The translations under genes were made by a program, and so were the position numbers. The notes beneath the pieces were generated by a model. That model saw only the letters and a program-made list of their open reading frames with translations, searched no databases and was not told the origin of the DNA. A stretch of DNA of 64,000 bases from Bryobacterales bacterium. GTDB taxonomy: Bacteria > Acidobacteriota > Terriglobia > Bryobacterales > UBA6623. The stretch covers positions 1 to 64,000 of the forward strand of contig JAPOOG010000157.1 in NCBI GenBank assembly GCA_026713545.1. Reading direction: 5' to 3'. Shown piece by piece: positions 15,990 through 18,992 of this stretch; within the stretch, counting starts at the first letter, position 1; each line of letters starts with the position of its first letter.

Positions 15990-17126
15990 TCATTGAGCAG
16001 CGGGAGAATCACCCGGCACCGAGTCCATCAGAGTCAACGCCAGCACAGGGTAGAGCGTGCCGGTGTAGGTGATGAAACTCCATTTGTCGGTATTGAGAGA
16101 TTTCGTCCACCACCGCCCGGACTGCCTCTGGTTCCGCTCCAGCCACGAGATCCCTCGTTTGAGGGCAGTGTGCGATGACGGAAGGCCGGCCTGAGACAGT
16201 ACGATGATCGAGAGGCCGGTCTGGTGGCCGTCACTTACGGGCTCGCCGAAGTCCGCTTCCCCACGCAGCCGCTCACTGCGATTGCCGACGCCCCACTGCT
16301 CAGGCTCCGCGAAGGAACGAATTGACCAACCGCCATCCGGTCGCTGGCGGTCGAGGATCATCTTGACGATGGCTTCCTTGCCGGCGGCGTCGAGAAGGTC
16401 CGGCTGATGCTGAGAAGCCCAAAGCAGCGCAACGCGCGCATATTCGTGGGGGGGATCCACGGTTTTCAGGTAACGCGTCAAGCGAAGAAAGCCCGATCCG
16501 AGATCATCGGTTTGATGCTGGTTCAACCACTTGGGCGCTAGTCCCACCGCCATGGCGGCGACCGTCGCAAGCTGATAGGCATCAGACTCGAACGGAGGCC
16601 AAGTCTCGACGGAATACCAGGCGCCGTTGCCGCGCTGCAAACTGAACATCAGTTCCAACGCCTTGGCGGTCTCGGAGGAAAGCTGTTTGGTGATATGCGC
16701 ATCCCATGCCGCCAGCGCCGCCGCCAAATAGACGACTTCCGCAGGGCCAGTACCTCGCTCTGTCTTATTGCGTTCCTCGGCAAGCGTCTCTTGGAGGATG
16801 CGCTCGAGGAAAGACCGAAACGACGGGTCAGGAGGGCCGAGCAAGCTGGAAAGTTGCGGACGGAGAATGCCGTACCATCCTGTTGTATGGCAGGAAACGC
16901 AGCCGCGATCGTTCACCCAGGCTTTCGCGCCATCTTCGAGATAGGCTCCCGCTTTCGTGAGAGATAGCCGTTCTGCGATCGTCTCATCGGCTGACGCCGG
17001 AGGGATCGAGACGTCTCCAAAGTGGTATTGGTGTAAGCGGTGGTCGCGTTTGGGTTCGGCGGTAAGGATCGATCCGGAAAACAGCACCGACAGCAAACAG
17101 ATCGTAGTGATCATCGGGTGTTTCAT
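15990..17126 (-). CDS. Heme c protein with terpene-cyclase-like alpha/alpha toroid
   Basis: A 378-residue protein with a Sec leader (ICLLSVLFSGSILTA). A single heme c motif CVSCH lies at about residues 76-80 in WVNDRGCVSCHTTGWYG. The remainder is an alpha/alpha toroid of the prenyltransferase/squalene-cyclase type, with repeated inner helices ending in QRGNGAWYSVETWPPFES and DRQRPDGGWSIRSFAEPE. There is no DXDD cyclisation motif, so terpene cyclase activity is unlikely. It follows a CBM9-like protein by 42 bases on the same strand, so the two are probably one operon. Such fusions occur in Planctomycetes and Acidobacteriota, but I know of no assigned function. Confidence 0.75.
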   Translation of the reverse strand: MKHPMITTICLLSVLFSGSILTAEPKRDHRLHQYHFGDVSIPPASADETIAERLSLTKAGAYLEDGAKAWVNDRGCVSCHTTGWYGILRPQLSSLLGPPDPSFRSFLERILQETLAEERNKTERGTGPAEVVYLAAALAAWDAHITKQLSSETAKALELMFSLQRGNGAWYSVETWPPFESDAYQLATVAAMAVGLAPKWLNQHQTDDLGSGFLRLTRYLKTVDPPHEYARVALLWASQHQPDLLDAAGKEAIVKMILDRQRPDGGWSIRSFAEPEQWGVGNRSERLRGEADFGEPVSDGHQTGLSIIVLSQAGLPSSHTALKRGISWLERNQRQSGRWWTKSLNTDKWSFITYTGTLYPVLALTLMDSVPGDSPAAQ

Positions 17127-17168
17127 TGCTTGGGAATCTCCTTGCTTCAGAACGGTGTCGAACCCTCT

Positions 17169-17912
17169 TCAGCGCTTCTCCACTACAGTCTCCACAAATC
17201 GCACCCAGCCGAAATCCTCGGGCATGTGAAAGTTCGGCCGCTCCGTGTTCACCGGCGACCAGGTGCTGTACTGCGGGTTCGTGGTCCCGCCGGAACGATT
17301 GAGATTCAGCCGCCAGCGATCACCGTCGCGGGGCGGTGTGTGCGCCGCGTCTTTCTCGAAGTTCCTGAAGGGAATCGCCACTTCGAGAATCCAATGATCC
17401 TCGCCGGGCGTGTCGACTTTGAGCGATTGGCCGTAGTGCGACGTCCACAGCCGCACTCCGACAGGATCGGAGCGAAGCCCGCCCCGCCACCAGTCGGTGC
17501 GCGTGAAGTTGAGCATCGTACCGATGACATTCATCTCGAAGCCGTAGTAGTTATGCACCTTGTCAGGGTTCGGGCTGATAAAGGCCTCGACACAATCGTC
17601 ACGAGAGACGGGGCCGTGCCGCCGTGTGACATTGGCGGCGATATTCTTGTCGCGGCAGTAGTAGCCGATGTAGAGATTCACGTCGTCCCAGAGGATCTTG
17701 GCTACGGTCTGCTCCTTCTCGCCCCCGCTCCACCAGTTGAAGTGGAAGTCCCCCACCGGGACTGCCGCCTGCCAGGCTGCCTCATCGAGGAGGGCGTCGA
17801 TCACGATGGGCTCGGGTGTTCGGTAGATGTCGTAGGACGGCTTCCCCTGGGCGAGACAGAGCAAAGGGACGGCCATAAGGAGAGGTAAGCGGCAACGCGC
17901 AAGAGGGATCAT
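17169..17912 (-). CDS. Secreted CBM9-like carbohydrate-binding protein
   Basis: A 247-residue exported protein with leader LPLLMAVPLLCLAQG. The body is a CBM9-like beta-sandwich: PIVIDALLDEAAWQAA opens the domain, AKILWDDVNLYIGYYCRDK forms the central strands, and DDCVEAFISPNPD and YYGFEMNVIGT are the usual later motifs. The length fits a single domain without a catalytic module. It is the first gene of a two-gene unit with the cytochrome-toroid protein, suggesting that it presents a carbohydrate or glycoconjugate to that partner. Confidence 0.8.
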   Translation of the reverse strand: MIPLARCRLPLLMAVPLLCLAQGKPSYDIYRTPEPIVIDALLDEAAWQAAVPVGDFHFNWWSGGEKEQTVAKILWDDVNLYIGYYCRDKNIAANVTRRHGPVSRDDCVEAFISPNPDKVHNYYGFEMNVIGTMLNFTRTDWWRGGLRSDPVGVRLWTSHYGQSLKVDTPGEDHWILEVAIPFRNFEKDAAHTPPRDGDRWRLNLNRSGGTTNPQYSTWSPVNTERPNFHMPEDFGWVRFVETVVEKR

Positions 17913-18029
17913 GTCTCGAGTTCTCTGAAGATCGCCTCTATCCTCTCACGTTCTGCAACGGAGGCCAACGTCGCATGCGCCAACACATCTCGTCCCCCGG
18001 CGTTATACTCGGCTGACGGAGCCTTTGCC

Positions 18030-18992
18030 ATGCAACGATTCAAAACCGCGGTCTCACTAACCCTCTTGCTCTTGCTGGCCCTCTCCGCAGCCGCGGACAC
18101 AGTTACGGCCGGGTCCATGGCGATTGTGAGGCAGGACGAAGGCTATCTCTTCCGAGAAGGCCCAGACAAGGTTTTCTTCTATCAGCTAACGGCAAAATCG
18201 CTTAACGGGAAATACAAGCGGTCGAACTACATACATCCCTTGTATGACCTCGACGGCAACGTGTTGACGGAGGATTTCCCCGAGGACCATCGACACCACC
18301 GAGGAATCTTCTGGGCCTGGCATCAGGTCGTCGTAAACGGCAAACGAGTGGGTGATCAGTGGATCAACGAGGACTCGACCTGGGAAGTTCAGGACAGTGA
18401 GATCTTTCCTCGCAAAAAGGGATCAGCCGCCGTATCGGTCAAGCTGCACTGGAAATCACCCCGTTGGATCGATGACAGCGGTAAGCAAAAGCCCTTTGTG
18501 GAGGAGATCACAACGGTCCGTGCTCATGCTCAAGAGGGCAACATCCGCAAGATCGACTTCACGATCGAGCTGACGGCTTTGGAAGACGATGTTCGCATCG
18601 GCGGTTCCGAGGACGTCAAAGGCTATGGAGGATTCTCCACACGTATCCGCCTTCCAAAGGACATTCGCTTCCTGGGACACAACGGCCCAGTCATCCCCCG
18701 CGTGACATCCGTCAGGGCCGGCCCCTGGTTGGACTTCTCAGGCTCCTATGGCGCCAAACCCGGCAGTGGACTTACTGTCCTGACACACCCCTCCTCGCCC
18801 GGCTTTCCACAGTCTTGGATCCTGCGATCCAGCGGCAGCATGCAGAATGCAGCTTATCCAGGAAGGCATTTGACCCGTGTTCCTACGGATGAGTCGTTGA
18901 AGTTTCGCTATCGGTTGATTGTGCATCGAGGCGAGCTGACTCGCGACCGATTGGATCAGTTTCAGGACCGCTATGTGAAGGAAGACCCGTAA
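18030..18992 (+). CDS. Exported DUF6807 family protein
   Basis: A 320-residue protein with a Sec leader (TLLLLLALSAAADT). It shows the DUF6807 (formerly called PmoA-like) pattern: PLYDLDGNVLTEDFPEDHRHHRGIFWAWH near residues 70-98, then beta-rich segments and a C-terminal SLKFRYRLIVHRGE. Despite the older family name, there is no evidence for methane oxidation. The His-rich DHRHHRG motif suggests a metal or catalytic site. It is divergent from the CBM9-like gene, with a GGAG ribosome site. Function is unknown, though family members often sit near sugar catabolism genes. Confidence 0.8.
   Translation: MQRFKTAVSLTLLLLLALSAAADTVTAGSMAIVRQDEGYLFREGPDKVFFYQLTAKSLNGKYKRSNYIHPLYDLDGNVLTEDFPEDHRHHRGIFWAWHQVVVNGKRVGDQWINEDSTWEVQDSEIFPRKKGSAAVSVKLHWKSPRWIDDSGKQKPFVEEITTVRAHAQEGNIRKIDFTIELTALEDDVRIGGSEDVKGYGGFSTRIRLPKDIRFLGHNGPVIPRVTSVRAGPWLDFSGSYGAKPGSGLTVLTHPSSPGFPQSWILRSSGSMQNAAYPGRHLTRVPTDESLKFRYRLIVHRGELTRDRLDQFQDRYVKEDP

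Follow-up and report, generated by a model that had tools for sequence, protein, structure and literature searches.

The gene at positions 15990–17126 of the window (the whole 64,000-nucleotide stretch of DNA from a Bryobacterales bacterium that was analysed) encodes an exported protein in which a single heme c attachment motif is placed inside a helical toroid of the terpene-cyclase type. Judged from its sequences, it belongs to a family in Acidobacteriota and Planctomycetota that appears to be new and undescribed, and no description of a heme c protein with a squalene-cyclase fold was found in the open-access literature searched. The function put forward here is a proposal: the reading that we tentatively prefer is that of a stand-alone enzyme with a single heme c, exported and probably resembling a peroxidase or an oxygenase, which would hold its substrate in the barrel. 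The chemistry for which the terpene-cyclase toroid is known is of the acid-base carbocation type. If the proposal is true, this fold has been turned to redox work in at least two phyla, having dropped its acid and gained a covalent heme, and a name and a testable chemistry would be given to proteins whose present annotation is hypothetical or, where a profile matches in part, squalene cyclase. The features of the gene and its product are as follows.

15990..17126, minus strand: toroid gene, coding sequence of 378 aa; exported single-heme c protein with an (alpha/alpha)6 toroid, by profile, model and fold search
17058..17126, minus strand: signal peptide, residues 1-23, judged by eye from a basic start, a hydrophobic core and a site between ILTA and EP
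16011..16973, minus strand: toroid, residues 52-372, six helical hairpins, from the AlphaFold2 model and the range aligned to squalene-hopene cyclase
16887..16901, minus strand: CXXCH heme c attachment motif (CVSCH), residues 76-80, present in 43/43 homologues and placed by DSSP of the model in the loop that connects helix 1 to helix 2
16617..16637, minus strand: QW-like motif QRGNGAW, residues 164-170, hairpin 3
16326..16346, minus strand: QW-like motif QRPDGGW, residues 261-267, hairpin 5, with Q, D, G, G and W invariant
16224..16235, minus strand: S-D-G-H, residues 298-301, where inner helix 10 starts; Asp299 is invariant, and position 301 holds His or Tyr, with a single Phe
16110..16130, minus strand: QW motif, residues 333-339, hairpin 6; the strict consensus RGISWLERNQRQSGRW covers residues 324-339

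The N-terminus reads by eye as a Sec-type signal peptide (MKHPMITTICLLSVLFSGSILTA), beyond which C76 and C79 are the only cysteines. Kinship with the class II terpene cyclases is seen in the C-terminal part, which matches SQHop_cyclase_C (PF13243) in Pfam at E=2.1e-7 (30.7 bits against a cut-off of 26.1), and in the QW motifs, one strict (324-339) and two further of the form QX2-5GXW (164, 261). In a profile comparison the match to 2sqc had an E of 1.1e-25. The curated cyclase models, on the other hand, were far from being passed (TIGR01787, 30.9 versus 322.7; TIGR01507, 22.3 versus 431.1), the protein has no DXDD, and DXDDT occurs in none of the 43 aligned family members. The family shares the (alpha/alpha)6 toroid and QW motifs with class II cyclases of the squalene-hopene type, such as 2sqc, 3sqc and the single-toroid 8pak, 8paj and MstE (6sbb), but differs in being exported, in lacking the DXDD acid and in carrying a covalent heme motif in its first hairpin; it also consists of one toroid of about 320 residues, as opposed to the two-domain form. 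Pfam searches at E up to 1 returned no cytochrome c family, and the best cytochrome match in the PDB was at E=0.87.

An AlphaFold2 model built from ten sequences, heme-free, reached a mean pLDDT of 80.1 and a pTM of 0.82. Its helices pair as 56-73/80-96, 101-116/127-146 and 151-162/183-195 in the first three hairpins and as 208-222/228-238, 247-259/300-312 and 320-331/355-366 in the last three. The best solved folds were squalene-hopene cyclases (1sqc and 3sqc, Z 19.8), with alignments spanning residues 52-372, heme motif included; cyclases of single-toroid size also matched (8pak and 8paj, Z 19.7-19.8; MstE, Z 16.7), and the identity in these fold matches was 16-19%. In the model, helices 1 and 2 are joined by the CXXCH itself as a loop, which lies on the side of the outer-to-inner loops; the first inner helix begins with His80. 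Since the motif sits in the first loop and the toroid alignment includes it, the predicted structure is one domain with a built-in heme site rather than a fusion of a cytochrome domain and a toroid. The first-pass annotation had described a single CXXCH and an alpha/alpha toroid without DXDD in one exported protein, which the sequence, Pfam, the AlphaFold2 model and the fold search all bear out. Its description of heme c as joined to the toroid holds in so far as both are in one protein; the image of a separate heme domain gives way to a motif inside the toroid.

The CXXCH is not a chance occurrence, as it arises in only 5e-05 of shuffles of the protein and is present in all homologues: C76, C79 and H80 are retained in 43/43 aligned family proteins, the identity at the far end of the family being otherwise about 30%. 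The home genome has three matches to cytochrome c assembly proteins (PF01578). Conservation of the motif at such distance, the export of the proteins and the presence of assembly proteins in the genome together make covalent heme on the toroid protein very likely. Besides His80, no His or Met is conserved family-wide among 42 sequences, the best Met column being position 160 at 69%. At position 301, 18 of the same sequences have His, these being the subfamily to which the protein belongs, one has Phe and the other 23 have Tyr, as do most far members. With no Met or second His throughout the family, the distal side of the heme would be either open or, in most members, contacted by His or Tyr301.

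The active site of an (alpha/alpha)6 barrel is, as a rule, found at the end that bears the outer-to-inner loops. Residues conserved at 95% or more were more frequent in these loops (16/104) than in the opposite loops (1/35; Fisher p 0.039), a weak bias that was not significant at 85% conservation (p 0.11) and to which structural QW motifs contribute. Besides C76, C79 and H80, the conserved columns at this level, counted in 42 sequences, are A59, W70, T81, L138, D142, Q164, G168, P178, P198, Q261, DGGW 264-267, S298, D299, T303, W328, L329, Q333, G337, W339, S343 and T357. Three outer-to-inner loops (174-181, 273-280 and 345-349), conserved residues among them, have pLDDT below 50 in the model; this would be in keeping with a missing heme or ligand, though plain flexibility may also account for it. 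A profile alignment, plausible over its whole length, pairs the CXXCH hairpin with the S-P-V-W-D-T hairpin that immediately precedes DXDD in squalene-hopene cyclases, an assignment in which the repeats may slip register. A claim that position 301 corresponds to a particular cyclase residue was dropped, as helical repeats permit other registers.

In the proposed mechanism, heme would be attached after Sec export by the cytochrome c maturation system of the cell, with His80 as the proximal ligand. It would then lie at the mouth of the barrel, in the region that carries the catalytic residues in class II cyclases. The substrate would enter the central cavity and be oxidised there. As the search for a conserved gene of a redox partner gave none, the oxidant would most likely be small and diffusible (peroxide or O2). 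For the substrate itself, a hydrophobic or N-acyl compound can be offered as a weak guess. It is conceivable, and we put it forward with more reserve than the enzymatic reading as such, that heme c at the catalytic end of the toroid has replaced the lost DXDD acid and thereby made of a carbocation-cyclase fold an oxidative enzyme that is exported and holds its substrate in the barrel.

Single-heme c proteins are usually electron carriers, and the protein could accordingly be an electron-transfer cytochrome whose toroid serves as a scaffold or docking surface while electron relay by the heme links periplasmic dehydrogenases with the respiratory chain. PQQ_2 beta-propeller genes near some family members are in keeping with this: one (L002:4494-5933) overlaps the 3' end of the toroid gene in genome G298, which also has a penicillin amidase upstream, and another is located two genes upstream of the second toroid copy in G156. 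The toroid protein shares Sec export and one CXXCH with a proximal His with the class I single-heme cytochromes c, but its motif is inside the toroid, it matches no cytochrome c domain in Pfam and it has no conserved sixth ligand. Taken over the whole family, the alignments make an ordinary His/Met carrier unlikely. No conserved redox partner accompanies the gene, and a cyclase-type barrel of 320 residues with many invariant Trp, Asp and Ser exceeds what a carrier needs, so that we regard electron transfer as a somewhat unlikely role. The planctomycete-type proteins with cytochrome domains (PSCyt1/PSCyt2, DUF1549/DUF1553), which these phyla also have, are likewise large, exported and provided with a heme motif, and one gene of this type is near the toroid gene at locus L005. 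Their domains are different, however, and in Pfam the toroid protein matches none of these families.

The distribution of the family was assessed in genome samples, from which all member counts are drawn. Among 297 acidobacterial genomes searched, 26 had matches, ten of which were ranked by short or weak matches alone, mostly inside frames of 650-830 aa. As DXDD was present in 8 of the 9 such frames examined, these are taken as squalene-hopene cyclases, and about 16 genomes carry the heme family. Matches at E up to 1e-15 were found in 27 of 294 planctomycete genomes. A 29%-identical member, annotated as 'hypothetical protein', is recorded on a plasmid of the alphaproteobacterial Sphingobium sp. 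RAC03. The copy number is low, a genome having one toroid gene or two. The two in G156 (L041 and L042) are some 1.25 Mb apart, both near genes of the amide- or nitrile-hydrolase type. The home genome of the window, that of a sponge-type acidobacterium, is 5.6 Mb and 99% complete, and its nearest relative in the genome collection is the MAG Bryobacterales bacterium RHO3_bin_12.

No conserved operon or neighbour gene of the toroid gene was found in the loci examined; nearly every lineage has its own neighbours, gene order is common to close relatives only, and that of the window recurs only in the sister locus L001, which is 94% identical. A scan for promoters and terminators gave nothing above chance level. 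In the window the toroid gene is convergent with a gene for an exported calcineurin-like phosphoesterase (PF00149, 14878-15837), which is retained in L001, and an amidase gene (PF01425, 13021-14439) lies on the same strand 1.55 kb downstream. Elsewhere an amidase is found 67 nt downstream (G024), or an amidase together with a Gfo/Idh-type oxidoreductase (G300). Four related planctomycetes have fatty-acid synthesis genes near the toroid gene, named from their sequences, not by profile, and another planctomycete group has a GDSL lipase upstream.

Amidase (PF01425) or penicillin amidase (PF01804) genes were located within 5 kb of the toroid gene at 5 of 11 loci against 0.16 expected (P about 3e-7), a post hoc figure for which the families were picked after seeing the data, two unrelated families were pooled and two contigs were short. 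The expectation was derived from gene numbers in the same genomes, distances and gene counts having been entered by hand. None of the three planctomycete loci counted had an amide hydrolase within this distance. Outside the 11-locus count, two further loci agree with this trend: an AAT-family acyltransferase gene adjoins the planctomycete member L088, and a CN_hydrolase gene is near the second G156 copy (L042). This link is a lead that suggests N-acyl substrates at most.

A stand-alone gene in one or two copies and a possibly open distal site would also suit a heme-based sensor or binding protein, in which the toroid would bind a ligand, be it a lipid, a protein or a small molecule, and gas or peroxide would be sensed or trapped at the heme with no turnover. 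No receptor or signalling gene recurs beside the toroid gene in the loci examined, though, and we hold such a role to be quite unlikely.

For an enzyme modifying terpenoids or hopanoids, in which the toroid would retain a polyprenoid pocket and the heme would oxidise the polyprenoid, the argument comes from kinship, the closest relatives in both fold and sequence being the class II terpene cyclases. These work at the cytoplasmic side, whereas the toroid protein is exported. The 99%-complete home genome has no recognisable squalene-hopene cyclase, PF13243 matching only the toroid protein and a frame of 1611 aa, and no terpenoid genes were recognised among the annotated neighbours of family members. 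The terpenoid substrate suggested in the first-pass annotation is weakened by these two results, and we give it a slim prospect. The other SQHop_cyclase_C match in the genome (L121, G000:C52:5627-5920) is inside that 1611-aa frame, which we take to be probably an alpha-2-macroglobulin-like protein.

The gene next to the toroid gene had been proposed as its operon partner. This gene and the one divergent from it are as follows.

17169..17912, minus strand: coding sequence of 247 aa, CBM9-like exported protein by Pfam CBM9 profiles; local neighbour of the toroid gene
18030..18992, plus strand: coding sequence of 320 aa, DUF6807 exported protein (PF14100, E=5.3e-48); divergent from the CBM9 gene

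The secreted CBM9-like protein beside the toroid gene was correctly recognised: it matches CBM9_2 (PF16011) at E=2.1e-20 (73.7 bits versus 25) and CBM9_1 (PF06452) at E=1.3e-10 (41.9 bits versus 23.4) in Pfam, and its gene is upstream on the same strand, ending 42 nt before the toroid start codon. By profile it belongs to the CBM9-like domain proteins, with one solved relative (4jpq); an AlphaFold2 model from two sequences reached a pLDDT of only 36.

Adjacency does not extend beyond the closest relatives, and the CBM9-like protein was rejected as a conserved toroid partner. Among the loci examined, the two genes adjoin only in the window and in L001, and a lack of conservation of the pair is one of the outcomes that the first-pass annotation itself had named as refuting its idea. 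In G298, whose toroid protein is 65% identical, the CBM9 gene (82% identical) is not on the contig of the toroid gene; it is divergent from a DUF6807 gene (75% identical), which reproduces the arrangement of the window. Joint action of the two proteins on a glycoconjugate, for which their close spacing, common strand and export in these two sister genomes would speak, is hence highly improbable, the more so as CBM9-like domains occur in 61/199 Acidobacteriota genomes. The earlier idea of an exported redox enzyme survives as the best reading of the toroid protein but not as a functional unit with CBM9, and the glycoconjugate substrate, which depended on that pairing, has lost its basis.

Judged by gene order, it is with DUF6807 that CBM9 forms a stable pair, and not with the toroid. 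The conserved divergent arrangement of the two is found at 17169-18992 of the window and at L118:7602-9377, and it is possible that they constitute an exported carbohydrate-related unit of their own. In L118 the DUF6807 gene is followed by a sulfatase-like gene, named by eye.
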